This document shows positions 39,930 through 61,460 of a stretch of 64,000 nucleotides of DNA, in pieces; the stretch's first letter is position 1, and every line of letters starts with the position of its first letter. The DNA is taken from positions 3,578,501 through 3,642,500 of the forward strand of contig NC_011891.1 in the NCBI RefSeq assembly GCF_000022145.1, given 5' to 3'. The notes under the pieces were generated by a model. The model had not been told where the DNA came from and did no database searches. It worked only from the letters and a program-made list of their open reading frames with translations. A program made the position numbers and the translations under genes. This DNA comes from Anaeromyxobacter dehalogenans 2CP-1 (lineage in GTDB: Bacteria > Myxococcota > Myxococcia > Myxococcales > Anaeromyxobacteraceae).

Positions 39930-40030
39930 GATCCCTCTGCCGCCGTCCTGCGGCTTCCTGTCCGACCATCGTTCGCCTGCGCCCCGCGACCGCGTGACGT
40001 CGCAGCGTTCCGCACCCATCGTCGCCGCGC

Positions 40031-43190: not shown

Positions 43191-43198
43191 GGGTCCTC

Positions 43199-45169
43199 TC
43201 ACTTGCCGCCCACCGGCAGGTGGCAGCTGTCGCACTGGCGCGCAGCGAAGGGCGGGTGGACCGCCGTCTTGAGGAACTTCGGGTCCTTGGACGAGTGCGG
43301 GTCGTGGCAGGCGACGCAGTGCATGACCTTCGCGTCGATGCCGGCGTGGCGGGTCGAGAACTGCGGCGCCTTCACGTCGTGACACTGCTCGCAGAGCGCC
43401 AGCACCGGCTCGCTGGTGAGCTTCGGCTGCGCCGACTGGTGGGGCGAGTGGCAGGAGAGGCAGTCGTCCGCGGGCGCGTGCCTCGTCTCCCCGGCCATCT
43501 TCTCCTTCTGCTTCGTGTGGCAGGAGAAGCAGAGGTCCGGGCCGGAGGCGTTGAGCAGGCCCTTCAGCTTGGCGCCGTGCGGGTTGTGGCACTTGGTGCA
43601 CTCCCCCGACGCGAACGCGGCGTGGACGCTCTTGGCCGAGTCGGAGCTCGCAGCCACCTTGGCGTGGCAGGAGAGGCAGAGCGCCTTCTGGTCCTTCACG
43701 ATCATCCCGCCGGCGTTCGCGCCGTGCGGATCGTGGCAGGTGAGGCAGGCGCCCTCCGCGAACGGCTTGTGGACCACGCCCGCGGAGGCGAGCTTCATGA
43801 GCTCGCCGTGGCATCCCTGACAGAGCTTGGCGCCGTCGGTCTTCAGCAGCTTGGGCCGGTCGGTCGAGTGGCCGGCGTGGCAGGCGCTGCACTTGCCCTC
43901 GAGCACCGGCTTGTGGGTGTGTGCCTTCACGAACCGGGTCTCGGCGTCGGCGTGGCACCCGAAGCACAGCTTGTCCTGGCGCGACGCCATCATGCCCGGG
44001 AAGTCCGAACCGTGCGGGTCGTGACAGGTGGCGCAGTCACCGTCCTTGAACGGCACGTGGACGACCTTGCGCTTGCCCTCCTCGGCGACCTTCGGGTGGC
44101 ACGTGGCACAGCCCTTCGAGACCTCCGTCGCGAGGAGTCCCTTCACCGGCGCCGAGTGCGGCTGGTGGCAGCCGAGGCAGGCCTTCGGCCCCGACATCGG
44201 TTTGTGCGCGACCAGCTTCTTGGCGTCCTTGCCTGCGTGGCACCCGGTGCAGAGCGCGGCGCCGGCAGCCCGGGTCATGGCGGGGCTGTTCGAGGCGTGC
44301 GGGTCGTGGCAGGCGCCGCACTCCTCCTTGCGCACCGGCGCGTGGACCACCTTCTGGCCCTTGGTGACGTCCTTCGCGTCGTGGCAGTTGGCGCACAGCT
44401 TGCCACCCGCCGCCTGCACGGCGAACGGCTTCGGGCTGCTCGGCGCCGCGTGGCACTGGTCGCAGCCGCCGGACAGCGCCGAGTGGACCGACGCCTTCAT
44501 GAGCTTCGGCTGGTCGGAGGAGTGCGGCTCGTGGCAGGCGCTGCAGCGCTTTCCAGCGACCGGATACCCGCCGTGCGCCTTGGCGAACCCGCCGGAGGTG
44601 GGCGCGTGGCACTTCACGCAGAGCTGCCCCTCCTCGGCCTTGAGGAGCGCCTTCTGCGCCGAGGCGTGCGTGGCGTGGCAGGCGCCGCAGCCCTCCTTGG
44701 CGAGCACCGGGTGCACGTTCTTGCGCTCGAAGGCCTTGCGATCGTGGCACTCCCAGCAGACGGCGCTCCCCTCCGCCTTCAGCATGTGGGGGGCGTTGGA
44801 GCCGTGGACGGCGTGACACTGCGTGCACGACCCGGTCTTCAGGACCGCGTGCACGTTCGGCTGGTCCATCCCGATGGACGCCGGCTTGTGGCACGAGTAG
44901 CAGAGCCTGTTGCCGCTCTCCTTCAGCAGGAGCTTCGGGACGATGCCGTGGCGCTGGTGGCAGGCCTCGCACTCGCCCTTCTTCACCGCCTCGTGGCTGT
45001 ACCGGAAGGCGGAGAACTTCTTCGCCTCCTCGGTGTGACAGTCGAGGCACTCCTTCCGCTTGAACTTTCGCTCGGCGGCGCCGCCGTCCGCAGGCGCCAG
45101 GAGCACGCCGGCGGTGAACGCCGCCAGCGCGAGGATCCGCCAGAGTCTCGTCGTGCGCGTCACGGCCAT
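43199..45169 (-). CDS. 26-heme doubled-CXXCH c-type cytochrome
   Basis: A 656-residue exported cytochrome (signal RLWRILALAAFTAGVLLAP to GGAA) with 26 CXXCH motifs in a regular array. Each repeat has the form CxxCHxPHxSxxPxLL...LCxxCH...HxPV..GxC. The protein ends CDSCHLPVGGK. Length per heme is about 25 residues, so it is almost all heme-binding fold, suiting a long-distance electron wire. No lipobox or membrane span apart from the signal. ATG at 45169 follows GAGGGA closely; the PPIase gene ends 22 bases upstream. Contains the same motif type as the 16-heme protein and may have arisen by repeat expansion. Confidence 0.92.
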   Translation of the reverse strand: MAVTRTTRLWRILALAAFTAGVLLAPADGGAAERKFKRKECLDCHTEEAKKFSAFRYSHEAVKKGECEACHQRHGIVPKLLLKESGNRLCYSCHKPASIGMDQPNVHAVLKTGSCTQCHAVHGSNAPHMLKAEGSAVCWECHDRKAFERKNVHPVLAKEGCGACHATHASAQKALLKAEEGQLCVKCHAPTSGGFAKAHGGYPVAGKRCSACHEPHSSDQPKLMKASVHSALSGGCDQCHAAPSSPKPFAVQAAGGKLCANCHDAKDVTKGQKVVHAPVRKEECGACHDPHASNSPAMTRAAGAALCTGCHAGKDAKKLVAHKPMSGPKACLGCHQPHSAPVKGLLATEVSKGCATCHPKVAEEGKRKVVHVPFKDGDCATCHDPHGSDFPGMMASRQDKLCFGCHADAETRFVKAHTHKPVLEGKCSACHAGHSTDRPKLLKTDGAKLCQGCHGELMKLASAGVVHKPFAEGACLTCHDPHGANAGGMIVKDQKALCLSCHAKVAASSDSAKSVHAAFASGECTKCHNPHGAKLKGLLNASGPDLCFSCHTKQKEKMAGETRHAPADDCLSCHSPHQSAQPKLTSEPVLALCEQCHDVKAPQFSTRHAGIDAKVMHCVACHDPHSSKDPKFLKTAVHPPFAARQCDSCHLPVGGK

Positions 45170-45191
45170 TCCCTCGGTGGAGGACCCCGCC

Positions 45192-46955
45192 TCAGTTGCC
45201 GATGCGGGTGATGAACGTCTCGATCTCGTGCGCGGCACGCAGCTTCGCGGCCCAGTCGGTCACCGCGCGGTTCAGCGCCTGTCCGAACAGCTTCTTCTGG
45301 ATGTCGGGCCTGGCTTCTGCGTAGGGCTGGACCTGCGGCTCGGTGCGCGACACGACCAGCACCACGTAGCCCTGTCCCCTCGGCCCTTGGTGCAGGCGGT
45401 AGTCGCCGACCTGCGCCGACCCGAGCGCCCCCGCGAGATCCTCCGGGAGCCCCTTGGCGGAGAGGAGCTGTCCCTCGAAGTCGAGCGCGCGCTGCGCCGG
45501 CGGGAGCTGCCCCTCGGCGTTCGCCTTGAGCCACTTGAAGTCGGTGCCGCGGGCGAGCCGCTCGGCCGCCCGCTGGGCGCCCTTCATGTCGGCGAAGGCG
45601 ACCTGCTCGAGGCGGTACAGCGGCGCCGAGGTGAACTCGTCGCGGTGGCCGTCGTAGTACGCCCGGAGATCCTCGTCCTTGAGGGAGACGTCCGGGACCA
45701 GCACGCGCTGCACGAACGTGCCGAACACCATCGAGTTCTCCTGGTCCTCGACAGCCCGCAGGTACTCCTCGGACTGATCGAGCTTCCGGACCCGCGCCTC
45801 CTTCGTGAACACGCGCTTGTAGATGAGCCCGTCCAGGCGCGGCCGCTTGAGCTTGTCCACCCGCTTCTCCTGCTGCGGCTTCTCCACGCCATGGAAGAAC
45901 TTCTCGCCGACCGCGTTGGCGAGGTCCCCCACCGTGATGGGCGCCTCGCCGGCAATCCGGACGATGGGCCGCTTGTCCTTCACGAGCACGGCGAACCCCG
46001 GCTTCGGCGCGTCGAAGTCGATCTTCCGGAGCAGGGCCTCGTCGATCTTCACGTACTTGCGATCCAGCTCCTTGCGGAATGCCGTGAGAAGCTGGCCGCT
46101 CTGCCGATCGACGGACGCCTTCTCCGCCTCGGCGCGCTTCGCCGGATCGCTCGGATAGACGATGTCCTCCACGTACAGGACCGCGAAGCCGTTCTGCAGC
46201 TTGAGCGGCGTCGTGGCCTCGCCCTTCTGCAGCGGCTTGAGCGCCGCCGCGACGGCCGGCAGCGTCTGATCCGGGGGCAGGACCTCCGGCTCCCCGGTGC
46301 CCTCGGCCTTCTTCTCCGCGATGAGCTGCTTCGCCAGCTCGGCGAAGCCCTTGCCGCCGGCAAGCGCCGGCTTCACCGCGGCGGCGTCCTCCTCCTGCCG
46401 GAAGAGGAGCGAGCGCACCTTCCAGCGCCGCACCGACTCCTTGTAGACGCGCTCGACCTCGAGCGCGTCCGGCTTGACGTCCTTCGTCAATTGCTGCTGG
46501 AGCGTCTCGCGCAGCGTCACGTCCTTGAAGACCGCCAGCTGCTCCTTCAGCTCGGGCAGCTCGTCCAGCCCCATCTCGCGCGCTTCCATGATCAGGAGCC
46601 GCGAGTCGATGAGCCGCTGGAGCACGGCCTTGAAGTCCGGCGACGTCGCGGCGCCCGCCTTCCGCTCATCGTGCGTCGCGGCCAGCGCCTCCTGGAGCTC
46701 CGCCAGGCGCACGACCTGATCGTCGATGCGCGCCACCGGCGTCTGCGCGAACAGCGGCGAGAACAGGGGAGCCTCGATGCGCGCCGCCATGGGCTCGGGC
46801 GCGGTGGTTGCCGGCTTCGAGGCAGGCGAGGGATCGGCCGCCTTGGGCGCGGCGTCAGGCTTCGCCGGCTCCGCCGCCGAGGCGACCTGGGGCGCGGCAA
46901 ACGCGACGAGGACGGCGAGCAACAGGGAGCGGGGCATGTCGTGCGGGATGGTCAT
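45192..46955 (-). CDS. SurA-like periplasmic peptidyl-prolyl isomerase
   Basis: A 587-residue exported foldase. Signal peptide RSLLLAVLVAFAAPQVASA, then a Pro/Ala spacer, a SurA-N-like helical region (ARIDDQVVRLAELQEALAAT to LPELKEQL), and two parvulin-type regions near 190-330 and 430-570. Weak parvulin signatures (GKGFAELAKQL, GEATTPLKLQNGFAVLYVED, KGLPEDLAGALGS) are visible. It heads the cytochrome operon and probably assists folding or export of its cytochromes. The ATG at 46955 would give a leader of about 8 bases from the predicted sigma-54 start; the ATG at 46937, directly before the signal peptide, is the alternative. Confidence 0.8.
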   Translation of the reverse strand: MTIPHDMPRSLLLAVLVAFAAPQVASAAEPAKPDAAPKAADPSPASKPATTAPEPMAARIEAPLFSPLFAQTPVARIDDQVVRLAELQEALAATHDERKAGAATSPDFKAVLQRLIDSRLLIMEAREMGLDELPELKEQLAVFKDVTLRETLQQQLTKDVKPDALEVERVYKESVRRWKVRSLLFRQEEDAAAVKPALAGGKGFAELAKQLIAEKKAEGTGEPEVLPPDQTLPAVAAALKPLQKGEATTPLKLQNGFAVLYVEDIVYPSDPAKRAEAEKASVDRQSGQLLTAFRKELDRKYVKIDEALLRKIDFDAPKPGFAVLVKDKRPIVRIAGEAPITVGDLANAVGEKFFHGVEKPQQEKRVDKLKRPRLDGLIYKRVFTKEARVRKLDQSEEYLRAVEDQENSMVFGTFVQRVLVPDVSLKDEDLRAYYDGHRDEFTSAPLYRLEQVAFADMKGAQRAAERLARGTDFKWLKANAEGQLPPAQRALDFEGQLLSAKGLPEDLAGALGSAQVGDYRLHQGPRGQGYVVLVVSRTEPQVQPYAEARPDIQKKLFGQALNRAVTDWAAKLRAAHEIETFITRIGN

Positions 46956-46973
46956 GTGGGCGGCCGACCTCGG

Positions 46974-46989
46974 TGCAACGGTTGTGCCT
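46974..46989 (-). promoter_or_regulatory. sigma-54 promoter of the cytochrome operon
   Basis: AGGCACAACCGTTGCA has the invariant GG-N10-GC core and matches the consensus TGGCAC-N5-TTGCW at all but the first position. The -12 C is at 46975, giving a start near 46963, just before the PPIase gene. Sigma-54 promoters need an enhancer-binding activator; an inverted repeat lies about 90-100 bases upstream. Confidence 0.75.
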
Positions 46990-47049
46990 CGTGAGCTCGA
47001 TGTAAGACATGGAAATTCGGTTGTGTTTTCCGAACCATTGAAACGCCTC

Positions 47050-47066
47050 GGCGCAACCATTGCGCC
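47050..47066. promoter_or_regulatory. perfect palindrome, candidate activator site of the cytochrome operon
   Basis: GGCGCAA-CCA-TTGCGCC is a 7-bp perfect inverted repeat around CCA, at roughly -87 to -103 from the predicted sigma-54 start. A related half site GAACCATTG (47032-47040) lies 22 bp away centre to centre, two helical turns. A similar palindrome precedes the other OmcS-like gene. Confidence 0.5.
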
Positions 47067-47113
47067 GCGCCACGGATTCCCGCAGCGACTGTCGGCGAAC
47101 GCGTCTTCGACCG

Positions 47114-48307
47114 TCATGGCGCCCCGTGGACGCGCCGCAGCGAACCGGTGAGCCGGCTGCGCTGGGGAGTGGCGTCGGCGCCGCCGGAGCCGCGCGCGAC
47201 CTCCAGGTCCATGCGGTCGACGACCGACGCTGCCACGCGGCACAGGAGGTCGGCGGAGTTCTGGACCCTGCCGAGATCGAACCACCACACGCCGCTGCCG
47301 CCGTCCCCCTGTGACACGGAGCTCCACGCGACGACCTCGTGCGCGCGGTCGAGCACCTGGACCGCGAGCTCCACGCGCGCGGCGTCCGAAGACGCGCCGC
47401 CGCCGTCCTCGTACCGCCGCACGATGCCGGCGACGACCAGGTCCGCGTCCAGCTTGTCGAGTACGGTGCTCGCCACGTCCAGCGAGACGCCGCCTGGCAT
47501 GATCAGGCGGTTCTCGAGCAGCACCGACCGGACCACTCCCGGCTCGACCACCTCGACCGCCGGCGAGGCCGAGAGCTGTCGGACCAGCTCGAGCGCCGCC
47601 GCGTCGCCCGCGCTCCGCCGCCGAGTCTCGTTCACGAACGGCAGGACCGCCACCTTGAACGGCCCCTCGCCCAACCGGGGCGAGCGAAACACCAGCCGCG
47701 GACCGAAACGGCGCTCGGGCTCGCAGGTCCCGGCCCGCGCGCCGCCGCGCAGGTACGCGCGGAGCGAGCGGCCGAGCCGGTCGAGCACGATGCGCTGGAC
47801 GCGCGCGGGATCGCGGATGACGCCGAGGCCGAGCAGCCCCGGCTGCTCGTCGCCGGCGCGCACCGCCCCGTCGATCCAGAGGATCCGGGGCGGCTCCCCG
47901 GTGGACACGAGGCGGAGCGTGACGGCGAGCCGCGGCGGTGCCTGCGGCTGGTAGGCGCCCACCGAGACGAGCACCACCGCGTCGACCCCCAGCTCCTCGC
48001 GCGCCGCGCGCGCGGTCTCCGCGTCCACGCCGGCCGTGTTCCGGACGCGGTGGCGGGCGAGGAAGTCCTCGAGCACGGGGCGCGGCACCACCTCGAGCCC
48101 TGCGCCCGCGACGATGCCCTCGACGCCGCGATCGAGCTCCTCGCCCGGCGCCGGTCCACCGCCGACGTTCACCGTGGGGAATACCGCCACGCGCGCGGGC
48201 GCGGGCGCGGTGGCCACGGGCACCCGCGGATTGCCGCACCCGGCGGCGGCCACCGCGAGCGCGAGGAGCCGCGCCGCGCTAGTGGAAGAGCTGCGACAGG
48301 AGCTCAT
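47114..48307 (-). CDS. lipoprotein with two CsgG-like domains
   Basis: A 397-residue predicted lipoprotein (lipobox AAAGC near Cys24). Two alpha/beta units resemble CsgG/DUF799-type folds: residues about 40-180 (RVAVFPTVNVGGGPAPGEEL, LGVDAVVLVSVGAYQPQ) and 210-390 (FKVAVLPFVNETRRRSAGDA, LDADLVVAGIVRRYED, VVAWSSVSQGDG). CsgG-like proteins form export channels or bind the outer membrane from the periplasm. The ATG at 48307 lies inside the previous gene, overlapping by 29 bases. The last gene before the sigma-54 promoter. Confidence 0.72.
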   Translation of the reverse strand: MSSCRSSSTSAARLLALAVAAAGCGNPRVPVATAPAPARVAVFPTVNVGGGPAPGEELDRGVEGIVAGAGLEVVPRPVLEDFLARHRVRNTAGVDAETARAAREELGVDAVVLVSVGAYQPQAPPRLAVTLRLVSTGEPPRILWIDGAVRAGDEQPGLLGLGVIRDPARVQRIVLDRLGRSLRAYLRGGARAGTCEPERRFGPRLVFRSPRLGEGPFKVAVLPFVNETRRRSAGDAAALELVRQLSASPAVEVVEPGVVRSVLLENRLIMPGGVSLDVASTVLDKLDADLVVAGIVRRYEDGGGASSDAARVELAVQVLDRAHEVVAWSSVSQGDGGSGVWWFDLGRVQNSADLLCRVAASVVDRMDLEVARGSGGADATPQRSRLTGSLRRVHGAP

Positions 48308-48848
48308 CGACGGCTTCCTCGGTGATGCGATTGACCGGCTCCCCCCCGCTCCCGAGGAGCCGATCACTGAGCGTCACCCCGCCCTTGGTCGACTGACCGG
48401 ACCAGACCACCTTGCCGGTCGAGGTCTCGAGCAGCTGCGCGCTGATGGAGACCACGTTCGAGGCCGTCGTCCCGGAGCGGACCTCCCCGTACTCCTTGAC
48501 GACCCCGACGACCACCGCATCCGCCTTGAGGACCGAGCCGAGCTTGACCACCTCCTCGACGGAGGGGCTGGTGGGCAGCGCCACGCCCGCGCGCGCGATC
48601 CCGCGGGCGACCTCGCCCGGGGGCAGCACGTAGATGCCGCCGGTCGCCAGGAGCGCGCTCGAGAACACCTCGCGCACGCGGTCGGCAGCGGCCGCCTCGC
48701 GGGTCAGGTTGGAGAAGGGCATCACCGCGACGGTCCGGATCGAGCCGAAGTCCATGTCGGTGTCGTGGTACACGCGGCCGGAGGAGCGGCAGGCGGCCAG
48801 CAGCAGCATCGTCGCCAGGCAGATCGAGATCGGGGTTCGGGTCGTCAT
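48279..48848 (-). CDS. DUF799/GNA1162-like lipoprotein
   Basis: A 189-residue lipoprotein (lipobox LLLAAC, Cys20). VRTVAVMPFSN-type opening (SIRTVAVMPFSNLTREAA), VLKADAVVVGVVKEYGEV and GKVVWSGQSTKGG match the DUF799/CsgG-like putative outer-membrane lipoprotein family. It is a shorter relative of the following gene. Encoded 24 bases after the outer-membrane barrel gene, so it likely works with it. Confidence 0.8.
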   Translation of the reverse strand: MTTRTPISICLATMLLLAACRSSGRVYHDTDMDFGSIRTVAVMPFSNLTREAAAADRVREVFSSALLATGGIYVLPPGEVARGIARAGVALPTSPSVEEVVKLGSVLKADAVVVGVVKEYGEVRSGTTASNVVSISAQLLETSTGKVVWSGQSTKGGVTLSDRLLGSGGEPVNRITEEAVDELLSQLFH

Positions 48849-48872
48849 GGCATGCTCGCGCTTGCGTCGCGC

Positions 48873-51083
48873 TCAGGAGAGCGTGAGGAAGAGGTGCAGC
48901 ATCAGGGAGTCCGCTCTCGTCCTGCTCTGGGGGGAACGGTTGTCGATGTTCGAGTAGTTGAGGTCCAGGTACGCGTTCGGCCGGACGTTCCATCGAAGGC
49001 TGGCACTCGTGGACTTGGTGGTCGTGTCGGCCACGTCATCCGAGGTCTCCTGATGCTGCCCCGTCAATACCAGGTCTCCTCCGCGCAACGGTGCATACGA
49101 GAGGAGATAGTTCCAGAGCAGGCGGGGGCTCGTGCCCGACTGCGTGGAGCGCGTCGCGCCGGCGGTGGCGAGCAGCGCGGGGAACGGCGTGATGCTGGCG
49201 AGCCCGGTCAGCTGCTGTGCCTCGACCTCGCGCACCCGATCCCCGGTCTCGCTGTGCGATCGGTTGTAGCCGTAGGTTCCCGACAGGTTCAGCACGCGGT
49301 TCGGGACGATCGACGTGGTCGCGGAGGCGAACGTGGTGCGCGTGGACGTGGCCGCTCCCGAGGTGTAGGAGCGGCCCGCGTTTCCGGTGACGCTCAATCC
49401 TCGATACAGATCTGCCCGCGCGAAGACGCTGGCCGCGTTCCGGAGCTGGTCGCCCTCCGGGAGTTGCGCCCAGTTCCCTGCATAGGTGGCGCCGGCGGTC
49501 GCAGCGGGGACCGGATTCACGCCCAGGGACGTGCCCCAGTCGAGCTGCCCGGTGTGCCGGCCCATCGAGCTGCTGTCCGTCCGCGCAACGCGGGCGGTGA
49601 GCGTGGTGACGGGATTCAGGAGCTGCCGGAGCCCGAGGCCGTTCGCGACCACCCAGGCGCCGGACTGCCCGCCCGTCTTGGCCCACCGGAAGCTGAGATC
49701 GTGCGTCAGCGCCGGTGAGTCCAGCAGGCGCGTGGTGACGGTCCCGTTCACCGCGTTGGTCACGGTCGTCGTCCGACCCGCAACCGACTCGGCGGAGACC
49801 TCCTCGAAGAGGACCACCTCGGTGACCAGGATGGCGCCGAGCGTCGCGTCGGTCGTGACCGTGGCGGCGAGCGGGCGGGTCACCAGCTTCAGGTACTTCG
49901 AGCGGGTCCGCTGGATGGGGATCTCGAACCGGTTCTGGAACGGGCCGAACGTCACCGCGCCGTCCAGCGGCACCGGCACCCAGTTGACGTTGTCGTCGCT
50001 TCGCCAGGCGGACCACTCGATCGCGCGCCAGACCGCGTCCGGGAGCAGGCGATCCACCCAGACCTGGACGAGGTTCACCGGCTGGAGCGGCTCCCCCATC
50101 TGCACGCCGACATCGCGCGGTGCCGTGTCGCCCGCCAGCGTGCGCTGGAAGCCGAGGTCGAGCCCTGCGCTGCCCTGAAGGTTGCCGTCCACCAGCGCCG
50201 GGTTCGCCTGGAGCGTGTCGGTGGACGGGACGTCGGGGAACGCCTCCACCAGCGAGAGGCCGGCGAGCGACGGCCGCTGCGTCCGGACCGTGCCGAGCGC
50301 GGAGGTGGCCTGGGTCTCGGAGAGCGAGCTCTGCAGCCCGTACGCGAGGTACGCCTGGGAGCGATCGCCGAAGAAGCGCCGGCGGTAGGTCGCGGTCGCG
50401 ACCTGCCCGAGCGTCCAGGTGCTGGTGTCGTCCACCCGGTCGTCGGTCGTGTTGTACGTCGTCGCGTAGGTGAGCCCCAGCTCGTCCGTCGGCGAGTAGA
50501 TCGCGGTGACGCCGGCGGTCGTGGTGGCCGTGTCGAACTCGGCGCGGGTCTCGTCGAACTGGTTGGCCCGGCTCAGCCGGAGGTTCACGACGGGCAGGTC
50601 CACCGGGTCCCAGCGGGCGGACGCGCCGTAGGTCTCGCTGACCAGCGTCGGCACGCGCGTCCGCTGCCGGCCGCCGGCCGCCGCGTCGACGCTGGACTTC
50701 GCGTCCACGGTGTCCCGGTCGTAGGTGAAGCTGCCGCCCAGCACCGGCCCACCCCAGCCCAGCCCGGTGGAGAGCGTCCACTCCTGGCGCGTGCCGTCGG
50801 TCGACGTGCCGCCGGTCTCGGACCAGAGCTGGTCGCGGAGCAGCGTGCCGTTGGCGCGCCATCGCAGGGCCTCGGTGAAGGACTTGTCGAGCCCGAGGCG
50901 GTACTGCTGCGAGAGCAGCTGCGAGTCTGTGGTGGTGGTGGTTCCCGTCGCATCGGTGAGCCGGAGCCGCGTGACGGTGTACATCGGCTCGGCCGCGGCG
51001 GTCAGGCCATCGGCGCGGGCCGCGCGCGGTCCGAGCCCAGCGGCAACGAGCAGCAGCGCCATCGCTCGCAGCGCTCCCCTCAA
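48873..51083 (-). CDS. outer-membrane beta-barrel protein with discoidin-like insertion
   Basis: A 736-residue exported barrel. Alternating amphipathic strands, many Tyr/Trp/Thr residues (GLGWGGPVLGGSFTYDRDTV, GLTYATTYNTTDDRVDD, ATYRRRFFGDRSQAYLAYGL, GTYGYNRSHSETGDR) and a C-terminal strand SLMLHLFLTLS indicate an outer-membrane barrel. Residues near 320-440 (DAVWRAIEWSAWRSDDNVNW, FEIPIQRTRSKYLKLVTRPL) look like an F5/8-type discoidin domain inserted into the barrel. No CXXCH. It could be the porin-like conduit for the island cytochromes. The TTG at 51083 overlaps the upstream TGA and adds basic residues before the signal core; the ATG at 51062 is the alternative. Confidence 0.8.
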   Translation of the reverse strand: MRGALRAMALLLVAAGLGPRAARADGLTAAAEPMYTVTRLRLTDATGTTTTTDSQLLSQQYRLGLDKSFTEALRWRANGTLLRDQLWSETGGTSTDGTRQEWTLSTGLGWGGPVLGGSFTYDRDTVDAKSSVDAAAGGRQRTRVPTLVSETYGASARWDPVDLPVVNLRLSRANQFDETRAEFDTATTTAGVTAIYSPTDELGLTYATTYNTTDDRVDDTSTWTLGQVATATYRRRFFGDRSQAYLAYGLQSSLSETQATSALGTVRTQRPSLAGLSLVEAFPDVPSTDTLQANPALVDGNLQGSAGLDLGFQRTLAGDTAPRDVGVQMGEPLQPVNLVQVWVDRLLPDAVWRAIEWSAWRSDDNVNWVPVPLDGAVTFGPFQNRFEIPIQRTRSKYLKLVTRPLAATVTTDATLGAILVTEVVLFEEVSAESVAGRTTTVTNAVNGTVTTRLLDSPALTHDLSFRWAKTGGQSGAWVVANGLGLRQLLNPVTTLTARVARTDSSSMGRHTGQLDWGTSLGVNPVPAATAGATYAGNWAQLPEGDQLRNAASVFARADLYRGLSVTGNAGRSYTSGAATSTRTTFASATTSIVPNRVLNLSGTYGYNRSHSETGDRVREVEAQQLTGLASITPFPALLATAGATRSTQSGTSPRLLWNYLLSYAPLRGGDLVLTGQHQETSDDVADTTTKSTSASLRWNVRPNAYLDLNYSNIDNRSPQSRTRADSLMLHLFLTLS

Positions 51084-52501
51084 CGCCGCTCCCCCACGAT
51101 CGCGAGGTCGTACGGCTCGCCCCCGACCTCGAACAGCCCGACCTGCCGCTGGGCGGTGAGATCGATCACCGAGACGGCCCGCCGCTCCGGCAGGAGCGCG
51201 AAGACCAGGTTCTGCATCGCGTCGAAGGCAAGGAACGACGCCCCACCTCCCACGTCCACGCCGCCGAGCGGCACCAGCGAGAACGGGTCGTAGATCGCGA
51301 GCACGGGGCTGCCGGACTGGGCGACGTAGAGCAGGTCCGTCCGCGGATCGACCAGGATCGCCGATGCGCCCAATCCGACGAACAGCCGGCCCGCGGGCGT
51401 GAGCTCCGGGAGCGTGTAGATGGACAGGTAGGCAGAGCCGGCGTGGACCACGAACAGGCGGGAGCCGCTCCGGTCGAGGTCGCCGCGGAGCGGCTCGGGC
51501 TCCGTCGTCGCCGAGCCGACGGCGGCGCGGCGCGTGACATCGAGCGTCGTCACCGTGTTCGACCGCCGTCCGAACACGTAGGCGCGATGGCGCGGTGGGT
51601 CGAGCCGAAGCGACCAGGGCTCCTCCCCCACCGCGACGCGGCCGATTTCCACGCGGGCGCTGGTGTCCAGGAAGGACACCGTGCTCGAGCGCCGGTTCAC
51701 GGTCAGCAGCGTCCGACCGCCGTCGACCAGGGCGACGTCGTACGGACCGTCGCCGGGACGCAGCCGGATCGGCTCGCGGACCTGGCCGTTGGTGAGATCG
51801 AGGACCTCGATCCGGTCCTCGAGGGAGAGCGCCACGTACGCGAGGTTCGCGCTCTCGTCCATGGCGACCCCCGCCGGCCCCATGCCCGTGGCGATCGCCG
51901 CCGTCACCTGGCGCTCGTATCGATCGAAGGCGATGAGTGCGTTGTCCGCAGCGCTCGCGCAGTAGCCGAGCCGCTGCGGGTGGGTGGCCTCCGGTGCCAC
52001 CAGCGAGAAGCGCGGCGCGAACGCGACCTCGTCGCCGGGGGGCTGCGCCTCCCGCATGATCAGCCACAGCACCTGGGCGCGCCCCGGCAGCACCGTGAAC
52101 GATCCGGTCACCTGGACCGCCTCGGAGCGGACCAGCAGGTCCGACGGGCCGTCCGGCGTCTCGATGCGCGCTCGGCCGACGTGGAGACGGAACCCGGAGT
52201 AGGTCCCAGCCGCGAGCCGGCCCTGTGCGAGGAGCCGCTGCCGGCCATGGCCTTCCCTGTCGACCTCCGAAAGCACCGCCCGGATCGGCTGGACACCATC
52301 CTCCCCCGGTCCGAGGGCGTCGACCCCTGCCAGACCGAAGGTGACGTTCTCGACCTCGCGCGCGAGCGGCTGCAGGTACACGTACAGCTCGCCGTCAGCC
52401 CCGAGCGGTCCCGGGTTCGTGGAGCGCGCGCGCACCGCCGAGCACCCCGAGCCGCCGACAGCCAGCAGCAGCGCGAGCGCGGCGCGTCGATGTCGGATCA
52501 T
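51080..52501 (-). CDS. YVTN beta-propeller lipoprotein
   Basis: A 473-residue lipoprotein (signal AALALLLAVGGSGC, lipobox GSGC). Residues about 35-170 form a beta-sandwich-like domain (GELYVYLQPLAREVENVTFG, TYSGFRLHVGRARIETPDG). Residues about 190-470 are YVTN propeller repeats (LGYCASAADNALIAFDRYER, MDESANLAYVALSLEDRIEV, PYDVALVDGGRTLLTVNRRS, PRTDLLYVAQSGSPVLAIYD, QNLVFALLPERRAVSVIDLT). No heme motif. First of the four-gene operon; its stop overlaps the barrel gene start. Possibly an extracellular cap on the barrel. Confidence 0.83.
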   Translation of the reverse strand: MIRHRRAALALLLAVGGSGCSAVRARSTNPGPLGADGELYVYLQPLAREVENVTFGLAGVDALGPGEDGVQPIRAVLSEVDREGHGRQRLLAQGRLAAGTYSGFRLHVGRARIETPDGPSDLLVRSEAVQVTGSFTVLPGRAQVLWLIMREAQPPGDEVAFAPRFSLVAPEATHPQRLGYCASAADNALIAFDRYERQVTAAIATGMGPAGVAMDESANLAYVALSLEDRIEVLDLTNGQVREPIRLRPGDGPYDVALVDGGRTLLTVNRRSSTVSFLDTSARVEIGRVAVGEEPWSLRLDPPRHRAYVFGRRSNTVTTLDVTRRAAVGSATTEPEPLRGDLDRSGSRLFVVHAGSAYLSIYTLPELTPAGRLFVGLGASAILVDPRTDLLYVAQSGSPVLAIYDPFSLVPLGGVDVGGGASFLAFDAMQNLVFALLPERRAVSVIDLTAQRQVGLFEVGGEPYDLAIVGERR

Positions 52502-52580
52502 GGCGACCCCCGCGCCCACTTTGCCATGAGTCGCGGGGCCGTTCCATCGGGCCCGCGCGTCCCGGGGCGTTCCGGCGGAC

Positions 52581-52621
52581 AAAAAAGAAAGGAGGGAGCC
52601 GCTGGCTGCGCGGCTCCCTCC
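52581..52621 (-). terminator. intrinsic terminator of the OmcS-like gene
   Basis: GGAGGGAGCCG (52591-52601) and CGGCTCCCTCC (52611-52621) form an 11-bp perfect stem with a 9-base loop, followed in the minus direction by TTTCTTTTTT (52590-52581). The clearest intrinsic terminator in the window, 27 bases after the stop at 52648; it separates the OmcS-like gene from the YVTN operon. Confidence 0.92.
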
Positions 52622-52647
52622 GGTCGAGCTACGTCAGCAACCGACCA

Positions 52648-53970
52648 CTAGTCCTTCGCGTGGCACTTGTTGCAGAGCGACTTCTGGAACGTGGCGTACG
52701 CGGTCGCCGGGCGGTTCTGGTGACCCGCCTGGATGATCGCGGAGGTGCGCCACTCGCCGCGGGCAGCAGCCTCGCGGCCGTAGTACTCGCCGTTCTCGAT
52801 GATGAACTCGGCGTCGGCCCAGCGCAGCGCGAACTCGTACGGCGACGCGTGCGCGCGGTGGCAGGAGAGGCACATCACGCCGCTGGTGCCCGCGGCGGCG
52901 GCGATGTCCGGCGTGCCGGCCGTGCCCACGGCCTTCGTCGCCAGGGTGGCGCGGTCGACGTGCTGCTCGAAGGGAGCGATGGCGTCGTACGCGTTCGTGC
53001 CGGTCAGGTCACCCGACTTCACGTAGCTGTTGTAGTTGCCGGCCACGGTGGCGCTCATGGTCGCGAGGTCGCCGGCCGGGTGCTTGAAGATGCTGCCCGA
53101 GATGTTGTCGTTGCTGTGCATGCCGGGGTGGCAGGTGCCGCACCACTCGGACATGCCGTTGCCGTACGCGACCACGACCTGGCCAGCGCGGGTCGCGGAA
53201 TCGAAGCCCGTCTCGGCCACGTTGTAGGTCGACGGCGCGACGGCGACCGGCGGGTTCACGGCGAACGCAGGCTGCGTGGGCGAGGACTTCGGCTGGTAAC
53301 CGACGCCGGCGAGGAGGCGGTACGCGCCCATCGCGGTGCCAGCGGGCAGCGCCGCGGCCAGCGGGTAAGAGCCGGACTCGGCGATCGGGAGGCCGGTGTT
53401 GATGATCGCGCCGGTCTCGTCCATGCGCGCCTTGCTGTGCGGATCGTGGCAGGAGATGCAGGAGAAGGCCGCGCCGTCGTACACGCCCGCGACGTTACCC
53501 GCCGGAGCGTTCGGGCGGGAGTCCGCCGTCATGCCGGCGTACGCCGCCGCGATGACCGAGTGACCGAAGCGCTTCGTGGCGACCGCGGCGCCGGCGGTGG
53601 TCGTGAACCCGGCGTTCGCCTGCCAGGCGAAGTCGCCGCCCGGGGTGAAGTTCACCATCGTGGGGACGAAGGTCGCGACGGTGGCCGTCGCGAGGGACGG
53701 CTCGTAGACGTGGTAGCTGCTCACGCCCGCGCGGCCGTGGCAGATGAGGCAGGTCGAGCTCGGGTCCTGCCCCTGGAGCAGGTACTTGCTGGCCAGACCG
53801 ACGGTCGGGTTGTTGCCGAGCACGGTCGACGCGGTGCCGGTACCGGTCGTCGTCGAGTTGTGCATCGTGTGGCAGCCCTCGCACTTGGCGACGCCGCCGG
53901 CGTGGAACGCATACGCCCGGCCCGAGACGAGCGCGAACGCTGCAACGATTGCGATACGCGTGAACTTCAT
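52648..53970 (-). CDS. omcS: OmcS-like hexaheme c-type cytochrome, monocistronic
   Basis: A 440-residue secreted cytochrome, signal KFTRIAIVAAFALVSGRAYA, mature start FHAGGVAKCEGCHTMHNS. Six CXXCH sites: CEGCH, CLICH, CISCH, CGTCH, CLSCH, CNKCH. Blocks shared with Geobacter OmcS include FTPGGDFAWQ, AFSCISCHDPHSK, GVGYQPKS, VAVAPSTYN, YGNGMSEWCGTCHPGMH, YNSYVKSGDLTG, CLSCHRAHAS and the terminal LCNKCHAKD. It is closer to OmcS in wording than the paralogue at 38646. A GAGGGGACACG ribosome-binding site and a strong terminator bracket it, and a long upstream gap suggests separate, strong regulation. The best candidate here for an extracellular heme filament subunit. Confidence 0.92.
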   Translation of the reverse strand: MKFTRIAIVAAFALVSGRAYAFHAGGVAKCEGCHTMHNSTTTGTGTASTVLGNNPTVGLASKYLLQGQDPSSTCLICHGRAGVSSYHVYEPSLATATVATFVPTMVNFTPGGDFAWQANAGFTTTAGAAVATKRFGHSVIAAAYAGMTADSRPNAPAGNVAGVYDGAAFSCISCHDPHSKARMDETGAIINTGLPIAESGSYPLAAALPAGTAMGAYRLLAGVGYQPKSSPTQPAFAVNPPVAVAPSTYNVAETGFDSATRAGQVVVAYGNGMSEWCGTCHPGMHSNDNISGSIFKHPAGDLATMSATVAGNYNSYVKSGDLTGTNAYDAIAPFEQHVDRATLATKAVGTAGTPDIAAAAGTSGVMCLSCHRAHASPYEFALRWADAEFIIENGEYYGREAAARGEWRTSAIIQAGHQNRPATAYATFQKSLCNKCHAKD

Positions 53971-54674: not shown

Positions 54675-57600
54675 TCACCAGTCGGTGTGGCAGTCGGTGC
54701 AGGCCAGCGCCTCGACCACCCCGTTCACGTGCCGCTCCTTGTTCACGGCCTCGTAGCCGGCCTGCGTCTGGTACCCGGCCCCGTGGCATTCGCTGCAGGC
54801 CTTGGTCCCGTGGTAGCGCCGGAACGTCGAGGTGCCGTGCGCCCGCCCGGTGGTCGGCGGCAGCCCGTGGCACGAGCCGCACTCCGCCTGGCCCGGGCCG
54901 CCGGTCCAGGACGGGATGGCACTGCCGCCCACGGCGGCCCCGTGACACGCGACGGTGGCGCACCCGTTCCCGTCCCAGGCCGGCGCGAGCACGCCTCCGC
55001 CGGTCGCGAGCACGCCGAAGGACACCTGCGCGGCGCCGTCGGTGTGCAGCATGTCGGTCGGCACCACGTGGCACTCGGTGCACGCGAAGCCGTTGGACCA
55101 GCGGCTGCCGGCGAGGTGGGCCTGGTGGGCGCCCACCGCGCGGGTGGACGGGTCGGTCTCGCCCGCGGTGCCGATGGGCGGCGCCGCGGCGTTCGTCGTC
55201 CGCGCGGCGTCGCCGTGGCAGGAGGTGCAGGTGAGGCCGCCCACGTCCAGCCGGCCATCCACGTGCGTGGCCACGTTCACCGTGGTGGAGGTGTAGCCGG
55301 TGTGGCAGGCGCCGCAGTCCGGGTTCGCGGGGTGCGGCGGAGGCGGCGGCGTCCCGTGACAGCTCCCGCAGGCGGCCTGCGTCCCGTCCACCTGCGTCCA
55401 GGCGGGCTCGACGTTGCTCCCGCCGGCGCGAAGCGTGCCGCCGTGGCAGTACGTCGCCGCGCAGGTGGTGCCGCTCCAGATCGGCGAGACGTTCCCGTTC
55501 GCGGAGGCCAGCGCGCCCCACACGATGGCGGGGTTCCCGTCGATGTGCGCGAGGCCGGTCGGCTTCAGGTGGCACTCGTCGCAGTCGAACGGCCGCGCGA
55601 TCGCGCTGCCCTGCACGTGCGCCTGGTGCGCGCCCACGGCGCGATCCGTGGTCGCGGTCTCCCCGCGCGTGCCGGCGGGCGGTGCGGCGGCGCCGACGGG
55701 GCGCGAGGCGTCGCCGTGGCACAGCGCGCAGCCGGCCGCGTTCACGTCCACCTTCCCGTCCACGTGGACGTCGCGGGCGGGCGCGCCGTCGGCGGCGCCC
55801 GGGTGGCAGGTGCCGCAATCGCCGCGCGCGGGGTGCGGATAGACCGGCGGCGCGCCGTGGCAGGTGCCGCAGGCGGCCTGGGTCCCGTCCACCACCGTCC
55901 ACGCCGGCCGGACGTTGCTGCCCCCGCCGGCCAGCGTGGCGCCGTGGCAGTACGTGGAGGCGCAGGTGGCGCCGTCCCACTGCGGCGACCCGCCGCCGCT
56001 GGCCAGCGCGCTCCACACGAGGGCGGGCGTGCCGTCGATGTGGCCGAGGCCGGTGGGGTTCAGGTGGCACTCGTCGCAGTCGAACGGCCGCGCGATGGCG
56101 CTGCCCTGCACGTGCGCCTGGTGCGCGCCCACCGCGCGATCGGTGGTGGCGGTCTCGCCGCGCGTGCCGGTGGGCGGTGCGGCGGCACCGATGGCGCGCG
56201 ACGCGTCGCCGTGGCACGAGGTACACGCCATGGCGTTCACGTCGAGCGCACCGTTCACGTGCGTGGCCACGTTCACCGAGGTGGCGGTGTAGCCGTCGTG
56301 GCACTGACCGCAGTCTGCGTTCGCGACGTGCGGCGAAGGCGGCGGCGCGCCGTGGCAGGCGCCGCACGCGGCCTGGGTGCCGTCCACCACCGTCCAGGCG
56401 GGCGCGAGGTTCGCGCCGCCGGCCGCGAGCGTGGCGCCGTGGCAGTAGGTCCCGGCGCAGGTGGCGCCGTTCCAGGAGGGCGTGGCCGAGCCGGCGCGCG
56501 CGAGCGCGCCCCAGGCCACGGCGGGCGATCCGTCCACGTGCGAGAGGTCGGTGGGCTGGACGTGGCACTCCGCGCAGCCGAGCGGGCGCGCCAGCGGGCC
56601 GCCGAGGACGTGAACCTCGTGCGCGCCCACCGCGCGGTCGGTGGTGAGCGCCTGGCCGCGCGTCCCGACCGGCGGCGCGGCTGGATTCACCCTGCGAGAC
56701 GGGTCGCCGTGGCAGAAGGTGCAGTTCGACTGCCACCCCGCGCCGTGGCAGGCGCTGCACGACACGCCGCTGGTGCCACCCTCGAGATCGGGCCCGTGGC
56801 AGGTGCGGCAGGACGCGAGCCCGGCGTTCGCCGCGTACCCGTGCTGCGCCGGATCGTTCCAGCCCAGCGGGTGCGTCTCGGAGCGCTCCAGCTGGCCGTT
56901 CATGTGCTTGCCGCCGTCCAGCCTCAGGCTCCCTGCCGCATCCACCGTGGCCGGGTGGCACGCCCCGCAGTTCGAGAGCTGCGCGTGGGGAGGCGGCGGC
57001 GGGAGGCCGTGGCAGGTGCCGCAGGCGGCCTGCGTGCCGTCCACGGTGGTCCAGCTCGGCGCGTGGTTCGTGCCGCCCGCGGCGAGCGTCGCCCCGTGGC
57101 AGTAGGTCGATGCGCACGCGCCGCCCTGGTACGTGGGCGTGGCGCCGCCGGTCATCGCGAGCGGCCCCCAGGCCAGCTCGACCGCGCCGGTGACGTGCGT
57201 GAGATCGGTCGGCACGGTGTGGCACTCGGAGCAGGCCACCGGGCCGCGGAGCGTCCCCGCCTGGACGTGCGCCAGGTGCGCCCCGACGCCCGGAGCGTCC
57301 GTGCCCAGCTCGCCCTGCGTGCCCGCCGGCGGCGCCGGCTGGTTGACGGCCCGGTTCGCGTCGCCGTGGCAGAACGTGCAGTTCGACTGCCAGCCCGCGC
57401 CGTGGCACGTGGCGCAGGAGATGCCGGTGCCGCCGCCGGCCAGGTCCTCGCCGTGGCAGGTCCGGCAGCTCGCCAGGTCGCGGTTGGCCGCGTAGCCGTG
57501 CGCGGTGGGCTCGATCCAGGTCACCGGATGGTACTGGTTCACCTGCACCGTTCCGTCCACGTGCATGCCGCCGGTCACGTTCACGGTCCCGTCGCCGTTC

Positions 57601-58664
57601 ACCGTGCCCGGGTGGCAGATCGCACAGCCGGTGCCGCGGGGATGCGGCGGCGGCGGCGGCGCGCCGTGGCAGGTGCCGCACGCCGCCTCGCTCGCCCCGC
57701 CCGTCCAGCGCGGGGACGTGCGGGTGCCACCCGCGGACAGCGTCGCGCCGTGACAGTACGTCGAGGTGCAGGTGGGGCCGCTCTCGCCCCAGGCCGGCCG
57801 CGTCCCGCGCGCCGCGAGCGGGCCGAACGTGACGCGGGCGGTGCCGTCGAGGTGCTCGAGGCCGGTGGGGACGACGTGGCACTCGGTGCACGCGAACGGC
57901 CCGGCCACGGGACCGGCCTGGAGGTGCGCCTGGTGCGCGCCGACCGCGACGGACGCCGGATCGGTCTCGCCATGCGTGCCGCGGGGCGGCGCGGCCGGGT
58001 TGCGCGGACGCGTGGCATCGCCATGGCAGTCCGCGCAGCCGGTGGAGAAGTCCACGGTGCCGTTCAGGTGGCGTCCGCCGGCGACGTCGATCGTGCGGAG
58101 CGTGCCGGCGAGGATGGTGGCCGGGTGGCAGATCCCGCAGTCGGCGGACTGGGGGTGCGGCGCGGGCGGCGGATCGCCGTGACAGGCACCGCAGGCGGCC
58201 TGCGTGCCGTCCACGCGCGTCCACGTCGGCCGCGTGGCGGCACCGCCGGCGAGGGAGACGCCGTGGCAGTACGCGAAGCAGGTCGCGTCCGCCGGGCTCC
58301 ACGAGGCCGCCGTGCCGTTCGCCTTGGCGGCCACCCCTAGGACGACGCGCGGGACCCCGTCCACGTGCGCGAGCAGGTGCGCCGGATCCGGGACGGCGTG
58401 GCAGGCCTCGCAGCCGAGCGGCGCGGCGATGCCGTGCGAGCCGGACACGTGCGCCGTGTGCGCGCCCACCGAGATGCGCGTGGTGTCGCTCTCGCCGTGC
58501 GCATCGCGCGGCGGGGCACCGCTCCCGTTGTCCGCGCCGCCGTGACAGCGGGTGCACGCCGCGCCCTCGGCGCGCTCCTCCGAGGCGGCGTTCCGCGCGG
58601 AGTTGCAGCCCGCGAGCGCGAGCGCGAGGACGACGGCCGGCAGACCGGCGGTGCGTCGGGACAT
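54675..58664 (-). CDS. giant multiheme lipoprotein with CXXCH, CX4CH and CX3CH sites
   Basis: A 1329-residue predicted surface lipoprotein cytochrome (lipobox LALAGC, Cys20). By count it has 33 CXXCH, six CX4CH (for example CASTYCH, CAGTYCH) and one CX3CH (CFAYCH), 40 candidate heme sites. It belongs to the Geobacter-type CxxxxCH/CxxCH family. Units of about 160-200 residues repeat: GETxTTDRAVGAHQAHVQG, PFDCDECHLxPTGLxHIDG, CASTYCHGATLAGGGSN, VVDGTQAACGTCHGAPP, DCGxCHxG. It ends VEALACTDCHTDW. GGGAGGCTCCACCC is the ribosome-binding site. Encoded upstream of the OmcS-like gene on the same strand; likely an outer-surface electron-transfer protein. Confidence 0.88.
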   Translation of the reverse strand: MSRRTAGLPAVVLALALAGCNSARNAASEERAEGAACTRCHGGADNGSGAPPRDAHGESDTTRISVGAHTAHVSGSHGIAAPLGCEACHAVPDPAHLLAHVDGVPRVVLGVAAKANGTAASWSPADATCFAYCHGVSLAGGAATRPTWTRVDGTQAACGACHGDPPPAPHPQSADCGICHPATILAGTLRTIDVAGGRHLNGTVDFSTGCADCHGDATRPRNPAAPPRGTHGETDPASVAVGAHQAHLQAGPVAGPFACTECHVVPTGLEHLDGTARVTFGPLAARGTRPAWGESGPTCTSTYCHGATLSAGGTRTSPRWTGGASEAACGTCHGAPPPPPHPRGTGCAICHPGTVNGDGTVNVTGGMHVDGTVQVNQYHPVTWIEPTAHGYAANRDLASCRTCHGEDLAGGGTGISCATCHGAGWQSNCTFCHGDANRAVNQPAPPAGTQGELGTDAPGVGAHLAHVQAGTLRGPVACSECHTVPTDLTHVTGAVELAWGPLAMTGGATPTYQGGACASTYCHGATLAAGGTNHAPSWTTVDGTQAACGTCHGLPPPPPHAQLSNCGACHPATVDAAGSLRLDGGKHMNGQLERSETHPLGWNDPAQHGYAANAGLASCRTCHGPDLEGGTSGVSCSACHGAGWQSNCTFCHGDPSRRVNPAAPPVGTRGQALTTDRAVGAHEVHVLGGPLARPLGCAECHVQPTDLSHVDGSPAVAWGALARAGSATPSWNGATCAGTYCHGATLAAGGANLAPAWTVVDGTQAACGACHGAPPPSPHVANADCGQCHDGYTATSVNVATHVNGALDVNAMACTSCHGDASRAIGAAAPPTGTRGETATTDRAVGAHQAHVQGSAIARPFDCDECHLNPTGLGHIDGTPALVWSALASGGGSPQWDGATCASTYCHGATLAGGGSNVRPAWTVVDGTQAACGTCHGAPPVYPHPARGDCGTCHPGAADGAPARDVHVDGKVDVNAAGCALCHGDASRPVGAAAPPAGTRGETATTDRAVGAHQAHVQGSAIARPFDCDECHLKPTGLAHIDGNPAIVWGALASANGNVSPIWSGTTCAATYCHGGTLRAGGSNVEPAWTQVDGTQAACGSCHGTPPPPPHPANPDCGACHTGYTSTTVNVATHVDGRLDVGGLTCTSCHGDAARTTNAAAPPIGTAGETDPSTRAVGAHQAHLAGSRWSNGFACTECHVVPTDMLHTDGAAQVSFGVLATGGGVLAPAWDGNGCATVACHGAAVGGSAIPSWTGGPGQAECGSCHGLPPTTGRAHGTSTFRRYHGTKACSECHGAGYQTQAGYEAVNKERHVNGVVEALACTDCHTDW
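55500..56700 (-). repeat. diverged direct repeats inside the giant cytochrome gene
   Basis: Near-identical coding blocks recur about 490 bp apart (for example around 55570-55700 and 56060-56190, both encoding GAHQAHVQGSAIARPFDCDE), with more diverged copies on either side. Evidence of growth by in-frame duplication of heme modules. Confidence 0.7.
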
Positions 58665-59501: not shown

Positions 59502-61460
59502 TCAGTGCGCACCGGCGGCCCCTCGGACCCAGACGTCGACGTTCGTGTTCTGCGCCAGGACCGACCACCCGCGCGCGGCGAGCCTCGCCCGGAGAGGCGC
59601 AAGCTCCACCGGAGGACACGCGCCGGGCGGCGACGGCGCCGGCAGCGCCGATCCCGTGGCGACGCGATCGCGCCCCAGGTGAACGAGCGCCACCGCGCTG
59701 CATCCTCCGCGCTCGCCGGGGGGAAGCATGGTGGCCGTGCCCACGGGACAGGTCAGGTACCGGAGCGCGAACGGCCGCGCGGGCCCGGCCAGCAGCACCT
59801 CGTTGGCCCCACCGCCCACCACGCACAGCGGTTCGCCGTGAAGGACCGCGGCGAGCCGCGGGCGCTCCCCGGCGCCGAGGTAGTGGAACACCTGTCCGAA
59901 CCGCTCACGACGCGCGTCGAAAAAGGCGAGATAGGAGGTCGTCGCGACGAGTCCGGCCACGCACGTGGCCGCGACGCCGATCGGGATCCAGCGTCCTCGC
60001 GCGCGCGCGAGGACGGGCGGCGCAACCCAGAGCAGGGCGAACCACGCGAGCAGCGGGATGGTGAAGCGTCCGGACCAGGGCTGGGGATAGATCGGCGCCG
60101 TGACGCCGAGGAACATCGCCGCCCCGACCGCCGCAACGGGCCCTCGGGCGCCGCGCGGCAGGAGAGCGACGAGCACCGGAAGGGCCAGCACCGAGGCGAA
60201 CGCGGTTCGACCCGAGTCCGGCGAGGGCAGCGGCTCCCACGCCCACCGCGCCACGCCGAAGCGCGGCTCGAGCACGCCGAGCCCCCCGTACACCCGCTCC
60301 ACCAGCCCCGGGAGCCAGCCCCGCAAGCCGGGCGGCGCGTAGCCGAGCGGCTCGAGGACCCAGTGCGCGAGCGCCGCCGATGACGAGCGCATCGCCTCGT
60401 CCACGCCGCGCACCCCGAGCCCCCGCCCCACTGCCCCGCCCGCGAAGTCGCCGAACGCCCGGTAGATCGGCCAGTACGAGGCGAGGATCGCCGCGCTCCC
60501 CGCCAGCGCGGCCGCGACCGCGGCGACGACGATCGCCGGCTCGCGCCGGCGGGCCCGCAGGCGGATCGCGGCGGCGGCGGCGCCCATCAGGACGATGAGG
60601 GCCAGCGTCGGCTTGCACGCGATGCTCATTGCAGCGAGCCCGACTGCCGCGGCGACGGCGGCCGGACCGCCGGCCGAGCCGTCTTCCCGCGTGCGCGGGA
60701 CCCGGAGCACGATCACCGCCGCGGCGAGGAGCGGGAACGCGGCGCAGACGTCGGTGTTCCAGGCCGCCACTCGGAACCCCACCGCTGGGAAGCTCGCGAA
60801 CAGCAGCGCGGCGAGCACTGCGCGCGAGCGTTCCAGCCCGAGTTCGAGCCCGATCGCGTACACCGCCCCGATAGCACCCAGCGTGATCCACGCACAGCCG
60901 AGCGCAGCGCCCGCCCAGCCGAGCCCAAGGAAGACGCGCGTGCCCAGGATGACGTCTCCTGCGACCGGGAGCCCGATCTGCTGCCACGTCGGTGTCGGCC
61001 AGGGAGTGAAGCCGCCCCGCCCTGCCCACGCGAGCACGCGCGGCACGTGGTAGATGAGCCCGTCGGAGTGACGCGTTCCGCGGAGCGCGTCCAGCCCGAG
61101 CTGAACGATCATCGCGATCGCGACCCCGCTCCCCAGGCCGAGGAGCGCGACGCCGCGGCGGGTCCGGAGGATCTGCCGAACGCGCAGCGGTCGGGACGGC
61201 GCCTCTCCCCGCCAGCCGCCGCGCACCGCCCCGACCCACGCCAGCGCCGCGAGTGCAATGGCATGGGCTGCCGCGGTCCACGCCGGCGTGAGGCGACCCA
61301 CGGTCCCCAGCCCGAGCCCGATCCCGACCAGGATCGCCTGGTACAGCGCGACGCCCATGACGAGCCGCCGCGCCGCCGCGCCGGGCCCGGAGGACGCCGG
61401 GACCGCCGCGACGCAGGCGAACGGCAGGACGACGTACAGGATCTCGAGCAGCGCGCGCAA
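59502..61460 (-). CDS. polytopic membrane glycosyltransferase-like protein (GT-C type)
   Basis: A 652-residue integral membrane protein with about 11-12 hydrophobic spans and a C-terminal soluble tail of ~110 residues. RHSDGLIYHVPRVLAWAGRG near 135 resembles the first extracytoplasmic loop of GT-C enzymes (DxxxY/H type), which transfer sugars from polyprenyl carriers. Donor and acceptor unknown; assignment to a GT family is tentative. The start is a TTG at 61460 with TATCGT 8 bases upstream and no ribosome-binding site. Lies 34 bases downstream of pgi. Confidence 0.65.
   Translation of the reverse strand: MRALLEILYVVLPFACVAAVPASSGPGAAARRLVMGVALYQAILVGIGLGLGTVGRLTPAWTAAAHAIALAALAWVGAVRGGWRGEAPSRPLRVRQILRTRRGVALLGLGSGVAIAMIVQLGLDALRGTRHSDGLIYHVPRVLAWAGRGGFTPWPTPTWQQIGLPVAGDVILGTRVFLGLGWAGAALGCAWITLGAIGAVYAIGLELGLERSRAVLAALLFASFPAVGFRVAAWNTDVCAAFPLLAAAVIVLRVPRTREDGSAGGPAAVAAAVGLAAMSIACKPTLALIVLMGAAAAAIRLRARRREPAIVVAAVAAALAGSAAILASYWPIYRAFGDFAGGAVGRGLGVRGVDEAMRSSSAALAHWVLEPLGYAPPGLRGWLPGLVERVYGGLGVLEPRFGVARWAWEPLPSPDSGRTAFASVLALPVLVALLPRGARGPVAAVGAAMFLGVTAPIYPQPWSGRFTIPLLAWFALLWVAPPVLARARGRWIPIGVAATCVAGLVATTSYLAFFDARRERFGQVFHYLGAGERPRLAAVLHGEPLCVVGGGANEVLLAGPARPFALRYLTCPVGTATMLPPGERGGCSAVALVHLGRDRVATGSALPAPSPPGACPPVELAPLRARLAARGWSVLAQNTNVDVWVRGAAGAH

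Follow-up and report, generated by a model that had tools for sequence, protein, structure and literature searches.

The 64,000-nucleotide stretch of the metal-respiring soil bacterium Anaeromyxobacter dehalogenans 2CP-1 analyzed here (contig NC_011891.1, positions 3,578,501 to 3,642,500; the whole stretch is hereafter called the window) carries, on the minus strand at 54675–58664, a gene for a 1329-residue lipoprotein cytochrome with 40 heme attachment motifs, most of which are arranged in seven tandem five-site modules. In each module, the third site has a longer spacer than the canonical CXXCH motif, being CX4CH in six modules and CX3CH in the first, and the same site carries one or the other of these motifs, but never CXXCH, in all related modules that we collected from other Myxococcota. 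We consider it likely that the protein is a lipid-anchored GSU-type multiheme cytochrome (MHC), in which tandem pentaheme modules of ~165 aa hold about 40 bis-His hemes, and that it acts as an extracellular wire, reductase or charge store fed by an adjacent gene cassette.

Motif Inventory and Modular Architecture

The reading frame begins at an ATG at 58664, with the purine-rich sequence GGGGGAGG ~8 nt to its 5′ side and a second in-frame ATG at 58700, and its stop codon lies within the span given above. The N-terminus of the product, MSRRTAGLPAVVLALALAGC, has the form of a signal peptide followed by a lipobox (LALAGC, aa 15–20), the cysteine of which, Cys20, is the only one of the 81 cysteines that does not fall inside one of the 40 motifs. 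These comprise 33 CXXCH, one CX3CH and six CX4CH sites, such that both the tally and the extent and length of the lipoprotein given in the initial annotation are reproduced exactly upon re-counting; the minus strand was not given there. A further 45 histidines lie outside the motifs, and the mature chain of 1309 residues provides ~33 residues per motif, which, together with the lipobox, fits published wire-type MHCs (PMC5566968). As a control for chance, we shuffled the mature sequence 2000 times, giving an expectation of ~0.31 motifs for each spacer length, with six CX4CH motifs found in none of the shuffles. By the same measure, the lone CX3CH motif is not significant by count, and it derives its significance instead from its position in the module.

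Alignment of the repeats resolves the 40 sites into seven modules of five sites each, two inserts of two sites, and one terminal site (35 + 4 + 1), bearing out the repeated-module construction proposed earlier. Module 1 (aa 34–206, 58047–58565, recognized by alignment and by the NCBIfam profile TIGR01904) has the spacer pattern 2-2-3-2-2, and its third site is the CX3CH motif CFAYCH (aa 129–134, 58263–58280, from the motif scan and the alignment), which is one residue shorter than the aligned CxxTYCH of the other modules. Modules 2 to 7, which are encoded on the minus strand like all features described here, have the pattern 2-2-4-2-2. The core of module 2 (aa 207–376, 57537–58046; CX4CH site CTSTYCH at 57750–57770) is followed by a two-site insert (aa 377–425, 57390–57536; CRTCH and CATCH, with two extra histidines), and the core of module 3 (aa 426–595, 56880–57389; CASTYCH at 57096–57116) by a second such insert (aa 596–644, 56733–56879; CRTCH and CSACH, again with two extra histidines). 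Modules 4 (aa 645–810, 56235–56732; CAGTYCH at 56439–56459), 5 (aa 811–975, 55740–56234; CASTYCH at 55944–55964) and 6 (aa 976–1142, 55239–55739; CAATYCH at 55443–55463) follow directly, and module 7 together with the terminal site (aa 1143–1329, 54678–55238; CATVACH at 54942–54962) completes the chain. The long-spacer motif is thus the third site in seven of seven modules, as had been claimed for the CX4CH motif, although the wording C-x-x-T-Y-C-H used for it is accurate for only five of the six CX4CH sites, the exception being that of module 7. Modules 5 and 6 have long identical stretches in common, which points to a recent duplication as one route of module gain.

The assignment to the GSU-type CxxxxCH/CxxCH family, which the initial annotation had suggested as a comparison, is borne out by TIGR01904 (206.8 bits against a cutoff of 27, with seven matches, one per module) and by PF09698 (63.2 bits against a cutoff of 21.7), a link that comes from the profiles and not from direct alignment with Geobacter proteins. 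The hallmark of TIGR01904, a CX4CH motif followed by CXXCH, is present in modules 2 to 7, with CX3CH in the place of CX4CH in module 1; even so, module 1 alone scores 52.2 bits against TIGR01904. The family domain spans the third and fourth sites only (73 positions), in contrast to the five-site unit that is repeated in the window protein, where the third site can also be CX3CH.

Conservation of the Third Site across Relatives

To place the module in context, we assembled 223 non-redundant modules (<80% pairwise identity) from Myxococcota relatives. The third site has a spacer of four residues in 188 of these and of three residues in the remaining 35, with no instance of a two-residue spacer, and its Cys, Cys and His are kept in all 223. 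The first, second, fourth and fifth sites are CXXCH throughout, save for three CX3CH motifs at the fourth site and a few gaps or losses. A profile-independent control, in which triplets of site spacers were counted next to an anchor motif and no hidden Markov model was used, yields the same picture, with spacers (2,4,2) found 223 times, (2,3,2) 45 times, and (2,2,2) not at all. Five histidine columns accompany the motifs in the module alignment (H38 in 221 modules, H41 in 219, H65 in 218, H135 in 177 and H158 in 208).

The earlier proposal that the CX4CH sites are structural, and not products of decay, is therefore upheld by the invariance of the Cys-Cys-His triad, with a spacer of four or three and never two; decay or chance as the origin of the unusual motifs is ruled out by the 223-module set, the anchored count and the shuffles taken together. 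The CX3CH motif likewise behaves as a one-residue shortening of the equivalent site, as had been proposed, since it aligns with the third site, is kept in the orthologues from strains 2CP-C and PSR-1, and recurs in numerous other proteins, with up to four copies per protein. This recurrence also rules out a motif peculiar to the window protein; as the third site is CX4CH or CX3CH but never CXXCH, CX3CH is a recurrent length variant and not a one-off. Both orthologues have the identical layout of 33 CXXCH, one CX3CH and six CX4CH motifs. The 2CP-C protein (92% identity, also 40 sites) differs at 106 of 1329 residues, with all 120 motif residues unchanged and a single substitution among the 45 other histidines, and the PSR-1 protein differs at 104 residues, again with no motif residue and one other histidine among them. 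On a quick tree of the 223 modules, the CX3/CX4 label changes at least 24 times, compared to ~33 times when the labels are shuffled; because the modules are short, this tree is weak, and we read from it only that the length has switched repeatedly, and not a number of events.

A repeated position that accepts two spacer lengths interchangeably but never the canonical one amounts to a natural experiment on the longer attachment loop of c-type heme, and makes the question of loop length testable by swaps inside a single module. We put forward, tentatively and as something that could well prove wrong, that the heme at the third site is functionally distinct in every pentaheme module. Its loop would have to exceed that of CXXCH, with three or four residues both allowed, and might impose a particular geometry or redox potential that recurs at regular spacing along wires of 40–94 hemes. 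Under the same reading, these giant cytochromes would supply the surface component of an Anaeromyxobacteraceae porin-cytochrome conduit.

Probable Heme Attachment at the Long-Spacer Sites

The sequence evidence favors five hemes per module, including one at the long-spacer third site. The 40 motifs are matched by a sufficient number of potential distal ligands, with five motifs and five non-motif histidines in each of modules 4, 5 and 6 (and six of each in module 7), and the presence of five further histidines for five motifs in the core modules fits the prediction that all sites bind bis-His hemes. Occupied long-spacer sites also have precedents: liquid chromatography-tandem mass spectrometry of MmcA shows heme at all seven of its motifs, CXXCH, CXXXCH and CXXXXCH included (PMC11024163), and two of the sites in cytochrome c3 are CXXXXCH (PMC10454114). 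The alternative, that heme is carried by the 33 CXXCH sites only and that the cysteines of the CX3CH and CX4CH motifs form structural disulfides or stand empty, draws on the System II-like heme attachment machinery (ResB and CcsA-type genes) of the genome itself, for which maturation of CX4CH is less documented in the literature that we searched. Long-spacer motifs are not matured by every heme attachment system in all cases. A disulfide, however, would not require the histidine that directly follows the second cysteine of the third site and that is as invariant as the cysteines, and it would accept a spacer of two, which is never seen; with matching non-motif histidines available in addition to the precedents above, we regard empty long-spacer sites as quite improbable.

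Several loci with ResB/CcsA-type heme attachment genes are found in the 2CP-1 genome, at ~973 kb, 1960 kb and 2072 kb, none of them close to the 40-site gene, and these are a possible place for a synthetase specialized for CX3CH/CX4CH. A sequence search of solved structures returned weak matches only, to a 158-aa cytochrome c family chain (3oue, E 0.0011) and to UndA (E 0.0011), with the rest at chance level and none of them covering the question of the CX4CH site.

Genomic Context and Proposed Function

Downstream of the 40-site gene, after a gap of 665 bp, comes a cassette on the same strand (38646–53970). From its first gene on, this cassette encodes a 6-CXXCH cytochrome of 440 aa (52648–53970), a YVTN β-propeller protein with a lipobox-like N-terminus (51080–52501), a putative outer-membrane β-barrel of 729 aa (48873–51062), an LpoB/GNA1162-like lipoprotein (48279–48848), a second lipoprotein-like protein of 417 aa (47114–48367), a PpiC-type peptidyl-prolyl isomerase (PPIase) with a signal peptide (45192–46937), a 26-CXXCH cytochrome of 656 aa that is a candidate trans-barrel or periplasmic wire (43199–45169), an NHL-repeat protein (40981–42819), a weak NHL-repeat protein (40031–40984; E 0.0013, just below the Pfam cutoff), and a second doubled-CXXCH cytochrome of 457 aa, of the type of the 6-site cytochrome (38646–40019). 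The order from the 6-site-type cytochrome through to the NHL-repeat protein is conserved in four further genomes, in all of which giant CX3/CX4CH cytochromes lie within ~20 kb of the cassette, on varying sides and strands.

The proximity of the giant cytochrome to a 26-CXXCH cytochrome and to a 729-aa protein with a barrel-like context, in a conserved cassette, may reflect a porin-cytochrome neighborhood. Under the function that we favor, repetition of the pentaheme module would build a single chain of ~40 hemes, with five bis-His hemes per module, one of them at the third site, and the lipid anchor would hold this chain in place, probably exposed on the cell surface. Electrons would then pass from the cassette (the 26-heme cytochrome, the predicted barrel, the PPIase and the propellers) to the giant cytochrome, which would hand them on to acceptors outside the cell, such as metal oxides; storage of charge is a likely side role. 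The converse weighting, in which the protein is mainly an electron capacitor and not a conductive wire or reductase, was proposed for the large cytochromes of A. dehalogenans in the 2CP-C genome paper of Thomas et al. (PMC2330069), and a tandem chain of this size could indeed store many electrons. A lipoprotein beside a porin-cytochrome-like cassette is nevertheless a better fit to trans-envelope transfer, and the two roles are not mutually exclusive, such that we consider a predominantly capacitive function to be rather unlikely.

Several observations weigh against our proposal. H135 is absent in about one-fifth of the 223 modules, so that not every module has five histidines at the aligned columns. 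AlphaFold2 models of a two-module construct and of a single module have low predicted local distance difference test scores (43.8 and 45.0, respectively), and because of this poor confidence, we derive neither ligand geometry nor a fold search from them. The 729-aa frame has no matches in Pfam or NCBIfam, and it is its gene context alone from which an outer-membrane barrel is predicted. Finally, the gap before the cassette yields no promoter or terminator evidence for or against a shared transcript, which leaves co-transcription unproven. This gap also suggests that the giant cytochrome could be functionally unrelated to the cassette, perhaps storing electrons as a lipoprotein that faces the periplasm or belonging to another respiratory chain, as do the varying placement of the giants relative to the cassette in relatives and the location of other TIGR01904 proteins far from it. 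We take this to be unlikely, as giant and cassette remain within ~20 kb of each other in four further genomes despite altered order and orientation.

On the far side of the giant cytochrome, between its gene and that for glucose-6-phosphate isomerase, lies a reading frame for a 652-aa multi-pass-like membrane protein (59502–61460) with no Pfam match. In 2CP-C and PSR-1, the equivalent interval showed no such frame, which indicates a strain-level insertion or loss.

Relation to Known Systems and to Larger Relatives

A c-type cytochrome gene with 40 heme motifs was reported in 2008 for A. dehalogenans 2CP-C by Thomas et al. (PMC2330069), and, judging from the count and the strain, the 2CP-C orthologue described above is very probably this gene. 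We see no material difference between the two, and the part of that report available describes neither the module structure nor the three motif types. A single electron-transfer cytochrome that mixes CXXCH, CXXXCH and CXXXXCH is likewise known, namely MmcA of Methanosarcina acetivorans (PMC11024163), which differs in being heptaheme, OTR-related, matured by an archaeal system and free of tandem modules. As both the 40-site count and the motif mixture are already published, the window protein in itself holds no surprise, and the novelty implied by the initial annotation was overstated. We found no description of the positional rule for the third site or of the conserved cassette in the open-access literature searched, and both are refinements within a known family.

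Parallels also exist at the level of gene clusters. The extracellular MHCs of PCC3 systems are very large and built from repeats, with up to 85 sites when CX2CH, CX3CH and CX4CH are counted (He et al. 2017, PMC5566968; PMC10734462), and they resemble the present system in cluster composition, a giant repeat-built MHC standing beside a porin (here the putative barrel) and a second MHC. PCC3 has, however, a conserved inner-membrane protein with five transmembrane segments, where the window cassette instead has the PPIase, NHL/YVTN propellers and LpoB-like lipoproteins; none of the neighbors examined was recognized as a PCC3-type inner-membrane protein of ~300 aa with two HX13H motifs, although no search was aimed at such a gene. 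The Uet undecaheme porin-cytochrome complex (summarized in PMC10734462) is similar in composition, as its cluster brings together a PPIase, NHL-repeat units, a porin and multiple MHCs, but its MHC sizes differ and the summary mentions no giant lipoprotein MHC. For 2CP-1 itself, the sole entry of Shi et al. (2014, PMC4245776) is a two-gene pcc cluster with a 12–14-heme cytochrome, from which the cassette at 38646–53970 is distinct.

TIGR01904 scores above its cutoff in 45 of the 146 Myxococcota genomes drawn, and several Anaeromyxobacter relatives of the window protein are longer, with 58–61 sites. A record heme count is ruled out, as 85 and 113 sites have been published and relatives in the present data reach 94. 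This largest relative is a lipoprotein-like frame of 3902 aa on the minus strand of an Anaeromyxobacteraceae genome (G047:C28:30000–42200), built from the same type of module and with 77 CXXCH, two CX3CH and 15 CX4CH motifs; other giant frames among the relatives have 80, 66 and 65 sites. As relatives with more modules have more sites, heme number scales with module number, and the range of 40–94 sites, together with the conserved cassette, offers a series of wire lengths for the study of conduction distance. From the same family, an adjacent pair of paralogues with 14 and 18 sites is found elsewhere in the 2CP-1 genome (3320675–3324111), and also in 2CP-C.

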